DNA of 32,279 nt, from the NCBI GenBank assembly GCA_903904685.1, contig CAIVDS010000056.1:1-32279 (forward strand). Direction: 5' to 3'. Numbering within the stretch: the stretch's first letter is position 1; each line of letters begins with the position of its first letter. Source of the DNA: an uncultured Verrucomicrobiota bacterium (GTDB lineage Bacteria; Verrucomicrobiota; Verrucomicrobiia; Opitutales; Opitutaceae). The translations under genes and the position numbers were made by a program. Of the stretch, positions 22,704 to 30,770 are shown in pieces. The notes below the pieces were generated by a model. It was not told the DNA's origin. It saw nothing but the letters and a program-made list of their open reading frames with translations, and made no database searches.

Positions 22704-22950
22704 AGGCCAACCTCATTGCATGATCGGTCAACAACACCGTGACAAAAGCCTGCGACAGCAGGCTCGCAAACACGGCAAAAATCGCGCCATGCACCCGAGC
22801 CGCCCCATGAACACCCTAACGGTTACGGGCGCACCGAGGTTATCGGTGTTGAAAAAACACCCGGGTCAAAGAGACGCAAAAAAACACGGCGCAATGGCCG
22901 TGTTGGATCGAAAGCACCGGGCCACCCGTGCGGCCGGAGAACGGGACCGC
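22704..22950. other. Hairpin-rich intergenic region after the ABC ATPase gene
   Basis: This gap has no convincing gene. It holds inverted repeats GCCTGC-GACA-GCAGGC (22748-22763) and CACCGA-GGTTA-TCGGTG (22832-22848), neither followed by a T run, and the minus-strand terminator at 22878-22904. A seven-codon frame starting at GTG 22700 overlaps the ATPase stop and ends at 22723; it could be the stump of a lost downstream gene or chance. Confidence 0.5.
22878..22904 (-). terminator. Terminator of the 33-aa Lys-rich gene
   Basis: On the minus strand, CACGGC-CATTGC-GCCGTG is followed by seven T residues (plus-strand A run 22878-22884). A-T pairs extend the stem outward. It lies about 46 bases beyond the stop of the small gene at 22951-23052. 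Confidence 0.85.
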
Positions 22951-23052
22951 TCAGCGGCTGTTCTTCTTCTCGCGCTTGGCGGCTTTTTTCTCAGCAGGAG
23001 TCTTCAGCGGGGCTTTCTTGGTCTGTTTCTTGGAGTCTTGGTTTTTGGCCAT
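22951..23052 (-). CDS. Tiny lysine-rich protein, 33 aa
   Basis: The frame starts at ATG 23052 (MAKNQDSKKQTKKAP...) and ends in TGA at 22951. About two fifths of the residues are Lys or Arg, with a KTPAEKKAAKREKK end that should be helical or disordered. Short basic proteins of this style recur in Verrucomicrobia and other groups as hypothetical proteins; the role is unknown, and nucleic-acid binding is only suggested by charge. Support for a real gene comes from the consistent basic composition and from a strong terminator behind it in the same orientation. No ribosome binding site is visible. Confidence 0.6.
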   Translation of the reverse strand: MAKNQDSKKQTKKAPLKTPAEKKAAKREKKNSR

Positions 23053-23087
23053 GGTGGTTTTTGTGTTTGAGGGTGAATGGAAAACAG

Positions 23088-23124
23088 GGCGGCCGGTCCG
23101 CTCCGACGGGAGCGAAGGGCCGCC
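23088..23124 (-). terminator. Hairpin terminator of the 47-aa Lys-rich gene
   Basis: GGCGGCC (23088-23094) pairs with GGCCGCC (23118-23124), and an inner CGCTCC/GGAGCG stem (23099-23104 with 23109-23114) continues it. On the minus strand the structure is followed by TGTTTTCC, a short T run. It begins 16 bases after the stop at 23140. Confidence 0.7.
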
Positions 23125-23139
23125 ACTGTGAGGATCGTG

Positions 23140-23283
23140 TTACTTCTTCTTATTGGCGGCAACCTTGGCTTTGGTGGCCTGCTGCGAGGTGATGAGAGCC
23201 TGCTTCTTGCTGTTCGAGTCGTTTGATTTCGACTGTTTCTGCAATGCTTTTTTCTGAACGGATTTCGGAGACTTATCGCCCAT
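23140..23283 (-). CDS. Small basic protein, 47 aa (MGDKSPKS-type)
   Basis: Starting at ATG 23283, the product begins MGDKSPKSVQKKALQKQSKS and ends KAKVAANKKK. Proteins with the MGDKSPKS...QKQ...KK design occur as conserved hypothetical proteins in many bacteria; function unknown. It is Lys/Gln/Ser-rich, lacks hydrophobic segments and is probably disordered. Upstream in-frame codons to 23379 give Arg-rich sequence and are not used. It is followed by its own hairpin and then the similar 33-aa gene. It begins 141 bases downstream of the cytochrome-porin stop on the same strand. Confidence 0.75.
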   Translation of the reverse strand: MGDKSPKSVQKKALQKQSKSNDSNSKKQALITSQQATKAKVAANKKK

Positions 23284-23424
23284 GGTGGGGGTTTTCCTGT
23301 GTTGAGTTACCTCACCTTCGGAATGTTCGTTTCCCCGACGGCGTGGTTGGTTATCCGCGAAGACACGGATGCGGTGCAAGCTTTTGCCGGAGCGAGCACC
23401 GCAGCGAGAATCTCCCGCCGGAAC

Positions 23425-24813
23425 TCAGAACAGGATCCAGGCTTCGAGGAAGAGCGTGTTGTTGTCGCGGGCGTTGCGGCCGGTACCGTCGTAGTTGGTG
23501 CGAGCTCCGTTGAAGCGGTCGTAGACCGTATACTGCAGGAGGAACTTCACGCTGCTCTTCGGCCAGAAGGCCGGGCCGCCGCCCTTGGCAAAGGGAAGAT
23601 AGTTGACCTCCATGATCAGACCGTCGCTCAGCGGGCTGCCGTTGAGGCTGCCACCAGCAGCGCCGCTCTGATACAGAACCGGGTCGCGGGTGCCATCGGC
23701 AATGAAGTATTTGACGGCGCCGCCATAGGTCTTGTCGTAGAGATAATCGACGGTGCCCTTCAGCGCCCACAGGCTATTCGAGGCATTCGTGCTGTAGCCA
23801 CCGACCTGACTCGCCCCCAGTTTCTGGTCTTCATAAATGTAGGAAAGCATCGCGGTGACATCGTGCTGGTCGATGGAGCACTGGTATTGGGAATCAAAGC
23901 CGACGTCTACATAGTGGTCTTTGCCAACGGTGTGATCGCTTTGGGGATAAGTGTCGGCGGCCATGCCGAAGGCGCCCACCTCCCAAGTGCCGCCGCCGAC
24001 CTGACGCTGAAGCGCGACACGCCAGTAGGGTGCGAAACTAGGAATTTCAGTCTCGGTGGCAGGATCAACGCCCATGCGTTTTTGGAACTGGGTGCCCAAC
24101 GTGCGATACGCACCGACGTCGAGGTAAACGGAGTTCGCGATCATCGCATAGGTGCCGACGCCACCCACCTTTTGGGCATCATCGGTGCCCCCCGCGATCA
24201 AGGGCGCACCCGCCGGCGTGGGGGCGAGAGCGGAACCGTTGAAAGGAAAGCTCCACACGGGAGTGCTGTTCCACGGATCCTGAAGCGTGGGGTTGTTGTT
24301 AGCATAAACGCCATAGCTTACATCGCGGCCGGCAACCGTGCCGCGATCAGCGAAACGCACCTCGGCGTTGTCCCAATGCCAGGCTTTACCGACGCCGTCG
24401 TAGGTGGCCTGAATGAACACGCCAAACTTGTTGGCCAAAGCGGTGGGATCCGCGCCGGCCAGATCACCGAACAGGCGACCGGCGTAAAAGATACTGGCCT
24501 GGTTAAGCGCGAAATTGTTGTTGTCGTTGAAACCCGGTCCGGCGCCACCCGGTTGGCCCCGCTGCGTGCTGCTGTAGGTGGGCTCCAGCATGAACGAGAT
24601 CGGAGGCAACGAGGACTGTCCGGTGGACATCGTGTAGCCCGACAGCTTAAACTGGCGGCCAAAATCGTTAAGTATGGGATAATCCGTATGGCAGGCGGTG
24701 CACTGCATGTTCATCTGCCGGGCAAAACTGGGCACGGCACGGACAACCGAAGTGGCGAATAAGAGGCCCACAGTCGCAAGCACCGCAGTGAACGTGGAGG
24801 AAGGGAGTTTCAT
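23425..24813 (-). CDS. Cyc2-like outer-membrane cytochrome c-porin fusion
   Basis: The 462-residue protein has a signal peptide (about 1-26, cleavage after VVRA), then VPSFARQ and one c-type haem site CTACH (C38-H42), followed by YPILNDFGRQFKLSGY. This N-terminal pattern (A-x-P-x-FARQ, CxxCH, P-x-L, GRxFK, GY) is that of Cyc2-type fused cytochrome-porins, which pass electrons from extracellular Fe(II) into the cell in iron oxidisers. The rest alternates short amphipathic strands and Gly/Asn/Asp loops, as expected for a beta barrel, and the protein ends with Phe (LFLEAWILF), the usual outer-membrane end. Electron-transfer function is inferred; similar proteins of unknown role exist. No other cytochrome gene is in the window. 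It is divergent from an operon of exported proteins. Confidence 0.8.
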   Translation of the reverse strand: MKLPSSTFTAVLATVGLLFATSVVRAVPSFARQMNMQCTACHTDYPILNDFGRQFKLSGYTMSTGQSSLPPISFMLEPTYSSTQRGQPGGAGPGFNDNNNFALNQASIFYAGRLFGDLAGADPTALANKFGVFIQATYDGVGKAWHWDNAEVRFADRGTVAGRDVSYGVYANNNPTLQDPWNSTPVWSFPFNGSALAPTPAGAPLIAGGTDDAQKVGGVGTYAMIANSVYLDVGAYRTLGTQFQKRMGVDPATETEIPSFAPYWRVALQRQVGGGTWEVGAFGMAADTYPQSDHTVGKDHYVDVGFDSQYQCSIDQHDVTAMLSYIYEDQKLGASQVGGYSTNASNSLWALKGTVDYLYDKTYGGAVKYFIADGTRDPVLYQSGAAGGSLNGSPLSDGLIMEVNYLPFAKGGGPAFWPKSSVKFLLQYTVYDRFNGARTNYDGTGRNARDNNTLFLEAWILF

Positions 24814-25092
24814 GAATTTTACTGTCGGTTAAGGATGGATGTTTAAATTTTTGGCCGCTTCAACCCAACTAAAGGGAAATCGACACAAACAAGAGCGCGA
24901 TTTCTTATCGGTCGCAGGTAATAGGACGCGAGCAGGAAATCATACAGCCATGACTTTACACTGGCTTAACACATTTCCGGCTCTGGCTTCATCAAATCAT
25001 TACACCAGATGATAATAATGACATCTAGCCGTAAAAGCCGCATACCCCTGTCGCCACACCCATTCGACGAAGAACACTCCATAACCACCACT
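24814..25092. promoter_or_regulatory. Divergent regulatory region between cytochrome-porin and exported operon
   Basis: This 279-base gap, more AT-rich to the eye than its flanks, must hold the promoters of both directions. I see no consensus TTGACA-TATAAT pair. An inverted repeat TCATTA (24997-25002) and TAATGA (25016-25021) with a 13-base spacer uses the same two words as the repeat over the Fur-family start codon. Neither flanking gene has a clear Shine-Dalgarno sequence. Confidence 0.5.
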
Positions 25093-26337
25093 ATGAAAAT
25101 ATCATATCAGCTCACACCGCTCGTTCTCTTTGTCACGGCAATCCCCGGCCTACTGGCGCAAGAACCACCCCAAGCTGCGCCAAGGCAGCGCATGCGTTAT
25201 TCGATTGAACAGGCCGTTTCGGACAATGCCCAGCTTCATACCATCGCCTTCGACGGGCTGGCTTTCCTGACGGGCGATTTCGGCGGAGACACCTTCCTGC
25301 CCCCGGGAAAAGTTTCCGACTATTTCGGCTTTCAATACATGAGGGACATCGATGCCAAGGAGGGCGGGCACAACACCTCGTTTCTGACCCGAATCGCCCA
25401 CAACATGCTGGCGGTTCTGAACGCCGGCCAAAAGGCCCAACTGCTCGCACTGGCCAAGGAACAGGAAAATGATATCCGTATTTTCGCCGAGCAGCGTTTC
25501 CCGTTGATCAAGGCCTTCCGTCGAAATCTAGCCGGGGATGTGCCCGCCGGCAGTCACGGCCTGAACCGGAGCGCGGTGATGAAGTGCTCGGCCGATTTGT
25601 ATGAGCTCGATGGCAAGCTGGCCTTTCAACGCGCCAAGGTCATGGGAGCGATTATCCGAAGCTTCGACGAGTCGCAAAAGGCAACTCTGGCCAAGCTGAA
25701 GTTTGGCGATTCCCGCACTTGGCCGGACCTGCCGGAGCAACTGGACAAGCGAAACATGTCGCACGAGGTGAACGTGGCCGTCATGACCTACGCCAGCGAG
25801 ATGTTCTCCTGGTATGCCGGATCCTTGGAGGCCGACACCTATTTCTGCCCCGAACGACATGGCATGTATTTCGGCGGATTCGGTATGAAAACCGCACCGG
25901 CAATGGGGAAAAAAGACTATTCCATCAGCACGTCGCTCACCGGCGACAGCGGCGAAAATTTCCTCACTGCGCTGACAACCACCCAACGAAAGCTCGTGTC
26001 CGACCTGATTGACCAACAACGCAAGAACCTGACGGAAATCGTGCAGACGCGGCGCGCCATCGCATCCGAGCTGAGGCGCTTTCAAAGCAGAGAGGCGGTT
26101 GACTCCGCCAAGGTTCTGGCGCTCTCACGGCGCTATGGCGAACTCGATGGAGAAATGTCGTTTCTTTACGCGACGGCCTTCGCCTCGGTCGACCAATCCC
26201 TGACCTCCCAGCAAAAAGAAAGGTTGCAGAGCCTGCGCACCACCAATCCGGCGGACCCCAAGGGACCGTTTCTCTATTCGATCCCGATCTCATCACCCAA
26301 GATCAAGGATACCGATTTCCTATTCGCCCTGCGGTAA
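25093..26337 (+). CDS. Exported helical protein with internal duplication, unknown function
   Basis: The 414-residue protein has a signal peptide (about 1-22, cleavage near LLAQ). I do not recognise a named family. It appears to be two copies of one unit of about 145 residues: residues 57-203 and 238-382. Paired blocks are FLTGDFGGDTFLPPGKVSDYFGF with SWYAGSLEADTYFCPERHGMYFGG (each split here only for comparison), LNAGQKAQLLALAKEQ with LTTTQRKLVSDLIDQQ, ELDGKLAFQ with ELDGEMSFL, and FDESQKATLAKLK with LTSQQKERLQSLR. The L-x-x-x-Q-K-x-x-L segments resemble LTxxQ (Spy/CpxP-type) helices. ATG 25093 is chosen because it begins the signal peptide. First gene of a four-gene exported operon. Confidence 0.8.
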   Translation: MKISYQLTPLVLFVTAIPGLLAQEPPQAAPRQRMRYSIEQAVSDNAQLHTIAFDGLAFLTGDFGGDTFLPPGKVSDYFGFQYMRDIDAKEGGHNTSFLTRIAHNMLAVLNAGQKAQLLALAKEQENDIRIFAEQRFPLIKAFRRNLAGDVPAGSHGLNRSAVMKCSADLYELDGKLAFQRAKVMGAIIRSFDESQKATLAKLKFGDSRTWPDLPEQLDKRNMSHEVNVAVMTYASEMFSWYAGSLEADTYFCPERHGMYFGGFGMKTAPAMGKKDYSISTSLTGDSGENFLTALTTTQRKLVSDLIDQQRKNLTEIVQTRRAIASELRRFQSREAVDSAKVLALSRRYGELDGEMSFLYATAFASVDQSLTSQQKERLQSLRTTNPADPKGPFLYSIPISSPKIKDTDFLFALR

Positions 26338-26372
26338 CACCGGAGACCGATACGTCGTCAAAAGAGGAGATC

Positions 26373-27926
26373 ATGACAACCGAGACCACTCGGCGGAAAT
26401 TTCTCAATCTTCTGGCCGTATCATTCGGCTGGTTCTTACTGCCGGCACGCGCACAGGTGGACGCTCTGCAAGAGCATAAACGAAACGGCAAAGACAAACG
26501 GAGACGAATGGAAGAGGGAGACTATGTGCTGCCCCCGGAACTGGCTGATTTCGCAACGTTGTCCCTTGTGCTGGGACGGGGCAGCGACCGGTCGGTCACC
26601 GTGAGCATTCTATCCACGAAGGCGCTTGAAGGTTATTTCGAATACGGCACGGACGCCCAACTCCCCATCCAGAAAACACGTCCGCTCTCCATAGCCGGCG
26701 GAAATCCGGTGGAAGTGATTTTCGAGGCGCTCAAACCTGACACGGAATACTTTTACCGTCTGCTTTCGCGGAATACGGAAGACGTCCGGTTTTCCGTACG
26801 CAGGGAAGGACGTTTTCACACACAACGCGCAATCGGAAGCACCTTCACATTCGGAGTGCAAGGCGACTCACACCCGGAGCGTCCCCAGATGAGCGATCCC
26901 CGCCTTTATGCACGCACGCTGCTTCACGCGGCGGCGGGGAAACCTGATTTCTATCTCTGCATGGGCGATGATTTCAGCGTGGCCAAGCTGAAGACGTTCG
27001 ATCCCGGTTCACTCGCGCAACCTTACCTGCTCCAGCGACCGTTTCTCGGCCTGGTCGCGCAATCGGCACCGCTCTTCCTGCTTAATGGCAATCACGAGCA
27101 GGCGTCGCTTTTCAATTTCAACCAAACGGACATCCGTCACGCCGTCGCCGTCGGAGCTCAAAACGCCCGCAACCACTATTATCCCACGCCATCGCCCGAT
27201 GGTTTTTACACTGGCGACACCTCACCGTTGCCCGACATCGGCCTGCTGAGGGATTATTATGCCTGGCACTGGGGAGACGCGCTTTTCGTGGTGCTGGATA
27301 ACTACTGGCAATCTCCTGCTCTCGTGGACAGCGGCTTTCAGGAAGTCGATGTCGGTGGCGATAAAAAAGGCCACGCCGGCCACAAGGATCGCGACTGGTG
27401 GAGTCTCACGCTAGGCGACGCGCAATATCACTGGTTCAAACGGACGCTGGAACAGAGCGGAGCCAAATATAAATTCGTTTTTGCGCATCATGTGCTGGGC
27501 TCCGGACGAGGCGGCGTTGACCAATGCGAACTCTACGAATGGGGTGGCCGGAACAAGCGCGGCGAGTGGGAGTTTGGCGAAAAGCGCCCCGGCTGGGAAC
27601 TGCCCGTGCACCAACTCATGGTCAAACATGGCGTCACCATTTTCTTCCAAGGTCACGATCATCTTTTCGCCAAACAGGAACGAGATGGTATTGTCTACCA
27701 AGAAGCGCCCATGCCTGCCGACCAAGGTTATTTCGCGTACAATCAAGATCGCTATCAATCCGGAACGAAGTTACCCAACTCGGGTCATCTGCGTGTGACC
27801 GTGGCACCAGCCGGGGTGACGGTCGATTACCTGCGATGCTTTCTTCCCGAGGACGAAAGCGGACAACAACAGACGGGGACCGTGGCCTGCAGCTATACCA
27901 TCAAGCCAAAGGAAAACCATGCGTAG
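26373..27926 (+). CDS. Exported metallophosphoesterase (purple acid phosphatase-like)
   Basis: The 517-residue protein has a twin-arginine-like signal (TTRRKFLNLLAVSFG, residues 5-19), a fibronectin-like N-terminal domain (about 60-150; LKPDTEYFYRLL) and a calcineurin-like phosphoesterase core. All dimetal motifs are present: D165-x-H167, G198-D199, G239-N240-H241-E242, H372 (FAHHVLG) and G427-H428-D429-H430. It should hydrolyse phosphate mono- or diesters in the periplasm or outside; substrate unknown. The start ATG 26373 has AGGAG 3 bases upstream. Its stop overlaps the next gene's start by 8 bases, indicating coupled translation with a paralogue that has lost metal ligands. Confidence 0.9.
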   Translation: MTTETTRRKFLNLLAVSFGWFLLPARAQVDALQEHKRNGKDKRRRMEEGDYVLPPELADFATLSLVLGRGSDRSVTVSILSTKALEGYFEYGTDAQLPIQKTRPLSIAGGNPVEVIFEALKPDTEYFYRLLSRNTEDVRFSVRREGRFHTQRAIGSTFTFGVQGDSHPERPQMSDPRLYARTLLHAAAGKPDFYLCMGDDFSVAKLKTFDPGSLAQPYLLQRPFLGLVAQSAPLFLLNGNHEQASLFNFNQTDIRHAVAVGAQNARNHYYPTPSPDGFYTGDTSPLPDIGLLRDYYAWHWGDALFVVLDNYWQSPALVDSGFQEVDVGGDKKGHAGHKDRDWWSLTLGDAQYHWFKRTLEQSGAKYKFVFAHHVLGSGRGGVDQCELYEWGGRNKRGEWEFGEKRPGWELPVHQLMVKHGVTIFFQGHDHLFAKQERDGIVYQEAPMPADQGYFAYNQDRYQSGTKLPNSGHLRVTVAPAGVTVDYLRCFLPEDESGQQQTGTVACSYTIKPKENHA

Positions 27927-29430
27927 CGCATCACTCCACTTTTCCGGCTTTCCTTTCATCCTGCTGCTGACCGCACTCGTTGCGACCAGAGGCGAAGACA
28001 AGTCCGCGACGACTCGTGGCCACCGTCCAAACATCGCGGCAAACGTGTTTAATGTCAGTGTGCCTGATCATCTGTTCGACCTGATTTTGTCACGACCTGA
28101 AAAACACTCCATCACGGCAAGCGTCCTGACCTATAAGGATGTCGAAGGCTTTTTGACCTACGGTCCAGAGAACAGTGCCGTGATGGCGCAGACGCCACTC
28201 CGGCAGTTCAAAACAGGAGAATCCGCCGAAGTTCTACTGGCTGGCCTGCAGGCCGACACCCGCTACCGCTACCAACTCAACCTGCGCACGGCTGAGAGCG
28301 GACCGTTTACCCGAAGTCAGGATAATTCATTCCATACAGCGCGCCCGCCTGGGGGCACCTTTTGCTTCACCCTCTCGGCAGATGCGCATCTTGATGAGCA
28401 CACCAGTCCGGCCATGTATGAGAGAACACTCGACAACATCCTAGCCGATCAACCCGACTTTCACCTCGATCTCGGCAATCTCTTCATGACGGACAAGCAC
28501 TCCAGCCGGGATGAGGCTGCCAGCCAATATCTGGCGCAGCGCTATTACCTCGGTCGCATCGGATGCTCCATCCCGATCTTACTCGCGCTGGGCACGCACG
28601 ACGGCGAAAGCGCCAAATACGACGACGGATCAACCGACTGCCTTGCGGTATGGTCAAATCGGATGCGCGAACGCCTGTTTCCCAACCCCGTGCCTGACTC
28701 GTTTTATACGGGCAACAACGTATCGCATCCGCATTCCGGATTGTTGCAGAATTACTATGCTTGGGAATGGGGTGACGTGCTCTTTGTCGTGCTCGATCCC
28801 TTCCGTTATTCCACCCGTCAGCATGGTGGAGGCGATGGCTGGGGATGGTCGCTGGGATTGACCCAATACCAATGGCTGGCGCAGACGCTCGCGCAGAGCC
28901 GGGCCAAGGTTAAATTTGTTTTCATCCACAATCTGCTTTGCGGGGATCAAGCGGCGCGCGGCGGAGTGGAGGTCGCAGCCTTCAACGAATGGGGTGGGAA
29001 AAACCCGGGTGGCAGCGATGGTTTCAAGGCCCACCGCCCCGGCTGGCCGGAACCGGTCCACCAATTACTGCTCCGCCACCACGTCACCGCCGTCTTCAAG
29101 GCCCACGACAATTTCTACGCCCGGCAGGAACTCGACGGGATCGTTTACCAAATGGTGCCCCAGCCAAGCTTTGCAGGAAACGATCGCATCCGGGATCTCG
29201 ACACCTACGGCTACAAACACGGCGTGTTTCTGGGTAATTCGGGTCATGTGCGCGTCACGGTCACAGCGGACCACGTGGCGCTGGATTATATTCGTGCCCG
29301 CCTCCCTGCCGACGAAACTGCCACGCACAAAAATGGAGAGATCGCCAGCCACTGCGATATTGCGAGCGACGGCACCCGGCACGACTCCACGCCGCCCACC
29401 AATGCTTCCATTTCAGCTCATTCGTTATGA
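27919..29430 (+). CDS. Metallophosphoesterase paralogue with degraded active site
   Basis: This 503-residue exported protein (hydrophobic signal about 8-22) aligns along its length with the preceding phosphoesterase: the same FN3-like domain (LQADTRYRYQL), NYYAWEWGDVLFVVLD, and the ending GNSGHVRVTV. Metal ligands differ. D155 and H157 are kept, but the bridging Asp of GD becomes N187 (DLGN), GNHE becomes G225-T226-H227-D228, and GHDH becomes A395-H396-D397-N398; H337 is kept. Three of seven usual ligands are thus changed, so it is probably a non-catalytic partner or works with altered metals. AAGGA lies 5 bases before ATG 27919. It overlaps the next gene by 4 bases (ATGA). Confidence 0.85.
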   Translation: MRSASLHFSGFPFILLLTALVATRGEDKSATTRGHRPNIAANVFNVSVPDHLFDLILSRPEKHSITASVLTYKDVEGFLTYGPENSAVMAQTPLRQFKTGESAEVLLAGLQADTRYRYQLNLRTAESGPFTRSQDNSFHTARPPGGTFCFTLSADAHLDEHTSPAMYERTLDNILADQPDFHLDLGNLFMTDKHSSRDEAASQYLAQRYYLGRIGCSIPILLALGTHDGESAKYDDGSTDCLAVWSNRMRERLFPNPVPDSFYTGNNVSHPHSGLLQNYYAWEWGDVLFVVLDPFRYSTRQHGGGDGWGWSLGLTQYQWLAQTLAQSRAKVKFVFIHNLLCGDQAARGGVEVAAFNEWGGKNPGGSDGFKAHRPGWPEPVHQLLLRHHVTAVFKAHDNFYARQELDGIVYQMVPQPSFAGNDRIRDLDTYGYKHGVFLGNSGHVRVTVTADHVALDYIRARLPADETATHKNGEIASHCDIASDGTRHDSTPPTNASISAHSL

Positions 29431-30770
29431 TCTCGCACGCCATCAAATCTCTGAAACTCGCGGCCCTGCTTTTGACCGCCGGTGCATTATGGGCGGAACC
29501 CGTATTGCCATTACCTTATGCCATCGTTTCCACAGGTCAGACGAAATGCTACGATAACCATCAGGTAGTCGCCCCGCCCACGCCCAGCCAGCCCTTCTAC
29601 GGTCAGGATGCGCAAACCCACACTCATCCAGCCAGCTATACACTCAGCGCCGATGGACTCACCGTCCGCGACAACGTCACCGGACTGGTTTGGCAGCACA
29701 GTCCTGACACCGATGGCGACGGCGTTCTCACCCGGCACGACAAATTGACTCTATCCCAGGAATTGGAACTCCCCGCAAAACTTAACGCCGCCAAATTTGG
29801 CGGATTCACCGACTGGCGTCTCCCTTCGATAAAAGAGTTGTATTCCCTCTTTGACACACGCGGCACCGATCCCAGCGGCTACACAGGCACGGACACCAGC
29901 GGCCTCACGCCGTTCATTGATGCGCGTTTTTTCAAATTCGCCTACGGCAATACGCGCAACGGCGAACGAATCATCGATTCGCAATACGCCTCCAACACGA
30001 AGCATGTCGGCAAATCCGCACGCGGTTGCGACAAGCTCTTCGGCGTCAATTTTGCCGACGGCCGCATCAAGGGATACGACTTGCAGATGCCCGGCGGCCG
30101 CGCCGAAAAAACCTTCTTCGTCCAGTGTGTGCGAGGAAACACCGCCTACGGGAAAAATGATTTCAGCGACAATCGCGACGGCACCATCACCGACCGCGCC
30201 ACCGGCCTGATGTGGGCACGAACGGATAGCGGCAAGGGCCTCGACTGGCCTGCTGCGCTCGCGTGGGTGCAAACCCAAAACACGCAAAAATATCTCGGTT
30301 ACGATGATTGGCGTCTGCCCAGCATAAAGGAGCTACACAGCATCGTGGACTACAGCCGATCCCCCGACACCACTCACTCGCCCGCCATCGATCCGCTCTT
30401 CACCTGCACTCAAATTACCAACGAAGGAGGCCAGTCCGATTATCCGTATTACTGGTCCTCAACGACGCACGTCAGTTTCCGAGGAGGCAACGCCGCGATG
30501 TATTTCGCCTTCGGACGTGCAGGCGGTTGGATGACCGAACGCAGCCTCGCGGGCGGTCCACCCGACCGAGGCCCACCGGGATCGCAAGGCATGGAACCAC
30601 CGGAAGGCATGATAGGCAACTATCACTGGGTCGATGTCCATGGCGCGGGAGCGCAACGCAGCGACCCCAAAGCTGGCGATCCTGCACAGTTCCCGCATGG
30701 TCGTGGCCCGCAAGGTGACGTCATCCGTATCTACAACTACGCCCGGCTAGTGCGGGATATCACCAAATGA
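29427..30770 (+). CDS. Exported DUF1566 (Lcl-like) protein with two repeats and EF-hand-like loop
   Basis: The 447-residue protein has a signal peptide (about 1-23, cleavage after LWA). It carries two DUF1566/Lcl C-terminal units: TGLVWQH...DWRLPSIKEL (85-138) and TGLMWAR...DWRLPSIKEL (259-303, then YYWSSTT). Between the halves of the first unit lies D94-T-D-G-D-G-V-L-T-R-H-D105, a 12-residue calcium-binding-type loop like those in dockerins and EF-hands. Near the C-terminus is a Pro/Gly-rich insert (GGPPDRGPPGSQG). DUF1566 domains occur in surface adhesins such as the Legionella collagen-like protein, so a cell-surface or matrix role is likely but inferred. ATG overlaps the preceding stop by 4 bases; last gene of the operon. 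Confidence 0.88.
   Translation: MISHAIKSLKLAALLLTAGALWAEPVLPLPYAIVSTGQTKCYDNHQVVAPPTPSQPFYGQDAQTHTHPASYTLSADGLTVRDNVTGLVWQHSPDTDGDGVLTRHDKLTLSQELELPAKLNAAKFGGFTDWRLPSIKELYSLFDTRGTDPSGYTGTDTSGLTPFIDARFFKFAYGNTRNGERIIDSQYASNTKHVGKSARGCDKLFGVNFADGRIKGYDLQMPGGRAEKTFFVQCVRGNTAYGKNDFSDNRDGTITDRATGLMWARTDSGKGLDWPAALAWVQTQNTQKYLGYDDWRLPSIKELHSIVDYSRSPDTTHSPAIDPLFTCTQITNEGGQSDYPYYWSSTTHVSFRGGNAAMYFAFGRAGGWMTERSLAGGPPDRGPPGSQGMEPPEGMIGNYHWVDVHGAGAQRSDPKAGDPAQFPHGRGPQGDVIRIYNYARLVRDITK

Follow-up and report, generated by a model that had tools for sequence, protein, structure and literature searches.

Cyc2 is predicted, in the available portion of the article by Keffer et al. (PMC8406198), to be a 16-strand porin that resembles OprO and OprP, with the cytochrome as its likely plug, and the function of divergent Cyc2 homologs is treated there as unsettled. 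In 2019, He et al. reported that 29 MAGs from Trout Bog, with Verrucomicrobia among them, have Cyc2 homologs (PMC6344600, available text). Cyc2-like fused cytochrome-porins, also in Verrucomicrobia, are already known, and the freshest part of the present results is the azurin pairing in relatives; this conduit-azurin gene pair was not found in the open full-text literature, for which coverage was partial (PMC10367259 included) and from which subscription papers are excluded. Within the same partly available open literature, no link between Opitutae and Cyc2 was found, and the full-text literature yielded nothing on Opitutaceae and extracellular electron transfer.

The DNA analyzed herein (the window) is a stretch of 32,279 nucleotides from an uncultured bacterium of the Opitutaceae (assembly GCA_903904685.1, contig CAIVDS010000056.1). 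An initial annotation of its gene at 23425..24813 had regarded the metabolism suggested by a Cyc2-like protein as unexpected in this group; this view is right only in part, given the Verrucomicrobia homologs published in 2019 (PMC6344600, in its available portion) and the presence of the gene in 15 of the 149 other genomes of the family. Of the rest, the Cyc2-like fused cytochrome-porin architecture is supported, and Fe(II) oxidation is a putative function.

Cytochrome motif and coding integrity

The gene (23425..24813, minus strand; stop codon at 23425-23427) starts with ATG and encodes a protein of 462 amino acid residues with a C-terminal Phe. Its hydrophobic leader, with a helix at residues 5-19 in the AlphaFold2 model, is followed by AVPSFARQMNMQCTACHTDYPILNDFGRQFKLSGYT, and the C-terminal end is NNTLFLEAWILF. 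Residues 1-26 (24736..24813, minus strand) constitute a putative signal peptide, for which cleavage is predicted between VVRA and VPSF, in a region of low pLDDT (residues 21-33). The conserved cytochrome motif, AVPSFARQ...CTACH...PIL, occupies residues 26-48 (24670..24738, minus strand), and the protein carries AVPSFARQMNMQCTACHTDYPIL...GRQFKLSGYT. The single CxxCH haem-attachment motif (residues 38-42; 24688..24702, minus strand) is the only CxxCH in the protein and is followed by PXL (P46-I-L48), in which P is the fourth residue past H42. All of the elements from which a Cyc2-pattern N-terminus had been proposed were present: AVPSFARQ, the single CxxCH, PxL, and GRQFKLSGY. When compared with the consensus AXPXFAR[Q/K][T/Y] (PMC8406198, available portion), AVPSFARQM matched at all fixed positions except the last: T or Y is expected at residue 34, which is M in the window protein, so that the strict motif is broken there. 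The same-clade relatives L007 and L013 have T at this residue, and the window motif was conserved except at residues 34-35; the motif search among the collected copies did not pick up L016, L019, L021, L023, L025, and L026. CxxCH was found in all 88 rows of the alignment (A4), 87 of which were picked by a pattern containing CxxCH; the columns of this pattern (P-x-FARQTG-xx-CxxCH-xxx-P) are invariant in A4 by construction, the pattern being the selection criterion.

Neither a frameshift nor an internal stop was found in the gene. In pairwise comparisons between the window copy and four relatives, dN was 0.26-0.32 and dS 1.17-1.66; the dN/dS ratios, which are rough because dS is high, were 0.18-0.24 in these four pairs vs 0.14-0.23 in six other pairs. 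The gene appears to be under purifying selection, and we regard it as real, not a product of chance, because of a full-length relative with 64% identity, dN far below dS, and a confident barrel prediction. An overlapping ORF of 487 aa on the plus strand (23299-24762) was also considered as a real gene and rejected: shadow ORFs are common in GC-rich DNA, and this ORF was taken for one because homology tracks the minus-strand frame.

Barrel model and place in the Cyc2-like family

The 16-strand beta barrel (residues 72-462; 23428..24600, minus strand) was delineated using AlphaFold2, Foldseek, and VIA-align. The AlphaFold2 model (88 aligned sequences; pLDDT 90.4, pTM 0.86) contained 16 long strands within residues 72-461 and placed the haem motif in an N-terminal plug, flanked by short helices at residues 38-41 and 50-57; residues 21-33 were poor, and the block means of pLDDT were 63 and 87 for residues 31-40 and 41-50, respectively. 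The top Foldseek matches were outer-membrane barrels, OmpT and AlgE first, with modest TM-scores of about 0.4-0.6; OprO and OprP also matched (E ~1e-6), at TM-scores of only ~0.45-0.5, and VIA-align gave a Z of ~22 to OmpF/OmpC-type porins. No invariant His or Met as a second haem ligand was found among the 88 aligned rows. The best candidate was Met75 in the first strand (conserved in 74 of the 88 rows), and the suggestion that it could be the distal ligand is only a guess because the Acidithiobacillus-type rows (L035, L041, L060, and L137), like the A. ferrianus protein, have Phe at position 75 and ten further rows deviate as well.

The fused cytochrome-porin architecture and the barrel ending in Phe, both put forward in the initial annotation, are borne out by this barrel/plug model and by homology with the presumed Cyc2 of Acidithiobacillus ferrianus: 29% identity along the whole length (BLASTP, E=4.5e-44). 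The A. ferrianus gene is taken for Cyc2 because of its operon order, not its annotation: cyc2, dihaem cytochrome c, ORF, COX2, and COX1, which we take to be the order of the rus operon. With 462 aa and this E value, the window protein is within the limits for Cyc2-like proteins (at least 365 aa and E 1e-5 to Cyc2; PMC8406198, in the portion available).

Pfam and NCBIfam searches (E 1) assigned no family to the window protein, nor did NCBIfam assign one to the presumed A. ferrianus Cyc2 or to one Gallionellaceae-family protein; a PDB sequence search yielded merely weak matches to succinate dehydrogenase subunits (E of at least 0.27). Scanning of the genome contigs with P-x-FARQTG-xx-CxxCH-xxx-P gave at least 119 loci, belonging (among the matches listed) to Pseudomonadota, Acidobacteriota, Bacteroidota/Chlorobiota, Ignavibacteriota, Rokubacteria, and others. 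All members of a set of 112 full-length sequences, 20 from genome and plasmid searches (query included) and 92 from the pattern scan, matched the window protein by BLASTP; 87 of the 92 scan sequences (among the matches listed) did so with at least 90% query coverage and 27-45% identity, and only partial matches were obtained for L043, L094, L099, L104, and L128. Identities were 64% with the full-length relative from its own family, 45% with Rokubacteria, and 35% with a Gallionella MAG. The window protein belongs to this large family of Cyc2-like fused cytochrome-porins. The family may travel on mobile DNA, and nine plasmid records contained relatives with 30-39% identity.

Acidithiobacillus Cyc2 (Cluster 2 of McAllister/Keffer) resembles the window protein in its full-length homology, one N-terminal CxxCH, PxL, and 16-strand porin, the last as predicted for Cyc2 generally by Keffer et al. 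(available text), and differs in having a dihaem cytochrome-oxidase operon, in contrast to the solitary window gene, and T instead of M at residue 34. Gallionellaceae-family Cyc2 (Cluster 1) shares the N-terminal FARQ...CxxCH...FGRxFK segment, but has an additional residue between CH and P (CHxQHFPxLNGFGRAFK, e.g. in L196), another C-terminus, and a separate branch in the tree; we assume that these Gallionellaceae-type proteins are Cluster 1 Cyc2, following the Gallionellaceae assignments in the available portions of published work. In the family to which the Gallionella MAG belongs, 42 of 60 genomes matched a profile of the window family (A1) at E 1e-8, and the later positions of A1 were reached only in G150, along the full length, and in G160, in two pieces, other matches stopping at 119-168; a profile-profile comparison between A1 and the Gallionellaceae-type gave a probability of 99.8% over 377 columns. 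Judging from these profiles, the window protein is related only remotely to Gallionellaceae-type Cyc2, and, because the A1 match is mostly limited to the N-terminal part, the window protein lies outside the best-validated Cyc2 cluster. Uncharacterised fused cytochrome-porins, for which 'cytochrome C' is a frequent annotation, are found in Pseudomonadota, Acidobacteriota, and other phyla; they have the same plug as the window protein and a similar DNNTLYLxxW C-terminus. In the Gallionella MAG G150, a fused cytochrome-porin of the window type coexists with one of the Gallionellaceae type (L138 and L185).

A quick maximum-likelihood analysis of 115 rows (L016, L019, L025, and L215 left out) placed the window sequence in a single clade (SH-aLRT 100) with 16 of the other 17 family sequences used. 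This clade was a loose neighbour of Rokubacteria and Alphaproteobacteria (85) and stood apart from the Acidithiobacillus clade and the Gallionellaceae-type sequences. The seventeenth family sequence, L020 (genome G131), fell with Acidobacteriota (99), and the end branch of the window copy (0.31) was among the longer ones of its clade. The gene was found in 16 of 150 family genomes (its own included) and was absent from the four congeners shown; 6 of 387 genomes in the phylum matched, its own included, one with an N-terminal match only. The spread is patchy, and lateral transfer of the gene is likely, although a quick tree that contains long rows is no proof of it.

Electron carriers beside relatives of the gene and redox proteins of the window genome

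Of the 19 family copies other than the window gene, 18 had their neighbourhoods fetched, a fragment in G114 being left out. In 12 of these 18, an azurin-like cupredoxin gene was found immediately downstream on the same strand, the match beginning 31-192 bases away. His67, Cys132, His137, and Met142, which are presumably the copper ligands, were invariant in these cupredoxins; one of these cupredoxins matched the NCBIfam azurin model with E=1.4e-21, under the model cut-off, and rusticyanin weakly. Five of the 18 neighbourhoods had instead a bc-type cluster, in which Rieske and cytochrome b are joined by a 6-CxxCH protein, a flavoprotein carrying Fe-S domains, a small protein with CxxCH, and a regulator of the PocR-AraC type, and L158, whose contig ends on the downstream side, had neither. 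The azurin profile at E 1e-10 matched all 15 other conduit-bearing family genomes and also 23 of 32 chosen conduit-less genomes; its presence in a genome is therefore little informative, and only adjacency counts. A close bc-operon cytochrome b (73%) was also found in G093, a genome without the conduit. In a second copy in genome G021 (L161, 8469-9904), the gene was broken (one TAG in the match, two pieces), and the azurin-like gene that adjoins it is one of the 12.

Of the 119 ORFs among the pattern-scan matches listed, 94 were uncut, and a downstream stretch of 1.5 kb or more was available for 74 of the 94. Unlike the window gene, 48 of the 74 fused cytochrome-porin genes were followed by a same-strand CxxCH ORF starting within 1.5 kb, vs 2 of 74 in a reversed-motif control; three such ORFs were scanned, and proved to be two dihaem c cytochromes and one cytochrome b/c fusion. 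The gene order in the family thus supports a putative role in electron transfer.

The window gene was the sole match in its 3.2 Mb genome (completeness given as 99.98%). No electron carrier was found on its downstream side (22704..23424, minus strand), where an azurin or bc-type operon stands in 17 of the 18 neighbourhoods of relatives: two small Lys-rich minus-strand ORFs are directly downstream (22954-23052 and 23143-23283; 33 and 47 codons), followed by an ABC transporter gene on the opposite strand. A partner was also sought in the divergent cluster at 25009-30770, and its proteins were unmatched in the other loci compared with it; one of them (25009-26337) had weak, below-cut-off similarity to the LTXXQ and Metal_resist models. 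The azurin profile (E 0.01) and the bc-operon cytochrome b both gave no match in the window genome, while the same queries were positive in 38 and 14 of 48 genomes, respectively, looser kin included. RuBisCO large subunit likewise had no match in the window genome (controls positive in 5 of 14 genomes). Terminal oxidases, for which the initial annotation had proposed a search, were found: three COX1 genes, with COX2-cytochrome c and FixO/CcoP-type neighbours. An inventory of multihaem proteins (the first 100 of 247 CxxCH places, up to contig C54) revealed a cluster on C54 (L167, 8379-16303), which encodes a 568-aa 10-CxxCH protein, a 780-aa protein with weak similarity to Alginate_exp and an aromatic C-terminal residue (a candidate barrel), and a 1291-aa 10-CxxCH protein with LVIVD repeats, and is preceded by flavin/Fe-S and cNMP-binding/Fe-S proteins. 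This cluster may be a second, multihaem conduit of the porin-cytochrome-like type.

Proposed direction of electron flow and alternative roles

There is good support for the protein acting as a one-haem electron conduit in the outer membrane, and conduction in one direction or the other is highly probable. The window protein probably works like a Cyc2 iron oxidase; it is not classed as one because the strict motif breaks at residue 34 and the function is putative. In the full reading, which we favor with moderate confidence, this fused cytochrome-porin is an inward one-electron conduit to terminal oxidases and an energy supplement. The protein would be exported and c-type haem attached at CxxCH; the barrel would span the outer membrane, plugged by the one-haem N-terminal segment, and single electrons would pass through it, linking a redox partner outside the cell with a carrier in the periplasm. 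The likelier direction would be inward: dissolved Fe(II), or a comparable donor of single electrons (reduced humics, for example), would supply the electrons, and a soluble cytochrome c would relay them to the terminal oxidases of the window genome, supplementing energy in a bacterium with no detectable Calvin cycle. The proposed direction and donor follow those of characterised Cyc2 proteins (PMC8406198 and PMC7029218, available portions). Fe(II) is plausible as a donor and may be the main natural one, at somewhat less than even odds. Iron-oxidising Calvin-cycle autotrophy is unlikely in this bacterium, and, since no RuBisCO gene was found, the conduit probably supplements another lifestyle.

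The A. ferrianus homology and oxidase locus, porin fold, carrier neighbours, three COX1 genes, and purifying selection argue for this inward reading; the lack of a carrier adjacent to the gene, the lack of azurin, bc-operon cytochrome b, and RuBisCO matches in the genome, residue 34, and the lack of an invariant second ligand argue against it. A more specific scenario, which we consider doubtful, is that a lineage, probably opitutaceal, rewired a Cyc2-type conduit to a dedicated azurin or bc-type operon, which would make a compact inlet for electrons, and that the window genome is a further variant, with no detectable Calvin cycle, in which the conduit lacks a dedicated carrier and works on general cytochromes or alongside the C54 cluster.

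Outward flow, from a bc-type complex or periplasmic cytochromes through the haem plug to Fe(III), humics, or an electrode when oxygen is scarce, is a serious rival, albeit an unlikely one. It is consistent with the bc-type operon and PocR-AraC regulator beside five of the 18 family neighbourhoods, the cytochrome b/c fusion adjoining an Acidobacteria relative, the separate porin-cytochrome-like cluster on C54 in the same genome, and the suggestion by He et al. of Fe(III)/humic reduction for methylotrophs with Cyc2 and porin-cytochrome genes (PMC6344600, available text); however, characterised Cyc2 proteins accept electrons from Fe(II) (PMC8406198, available portion), the relative in A. ferrianus forms part of an oxidase operon, and the bc-operon cytochrome b was not found in the window genome. 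The haem-plugged porin may alternatively have a non-respiratory role, such as sensing metals or redox state at the cell surface or detoxifying metals, to which the orphan position of the gene and the weakly LTXXQ/Metal_resist-like divergent neighbour (25009-26337, below cut-off) would point; we consider this improbable, as electron-carrier neighbours recur across the family and the cluster of the divergent neighbour had no match in the other loci compared with it. Least probable of all is a stranded copy, intact but out of use after its dedicated carrier was lost or never present, for although azurin and bc partners were found neither nearby nor in the genome search and the end branch is long for its clade, the gene is free of frameshifts and stops, its dN/dS ratios (at high dS) are close to those of other pairs, and its motif is kept except at residues 34-35.

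If the fused cytochrome-porin works as a conduit, electrons from Fe(II) or humics could feed supposed plain heterotrophs, and surveys equating Cyc2 matches with iron-oxidising autotrophy would misread such bacteria. The azurin pairing in relatives is a small, concrete system for testing the function of divergent Cyc2 homologs.

Two plasmid-borne relatives (L023, CP084173.1), one from Acidiphilium cryptum, on a plasmid typed conjugative, and one from A. ferrooxidans, have identical match scores; the Acidiphilium cryptum copy is adjoined by a transposase and a c-type cytochrome. At 25009-29430, the window contains a Spy/LTXXQ-like protein followed by two metallophosphoesterase-like proteins; a Spy-like protein with 52.6% identity over 90% is encoded on the Candidatus Chlorohelix allophototropha plasmid NZ_CP128401.1, in the order Spy-like gene, YbhB/YbcL-like gene, and two metallophosphoesterases.
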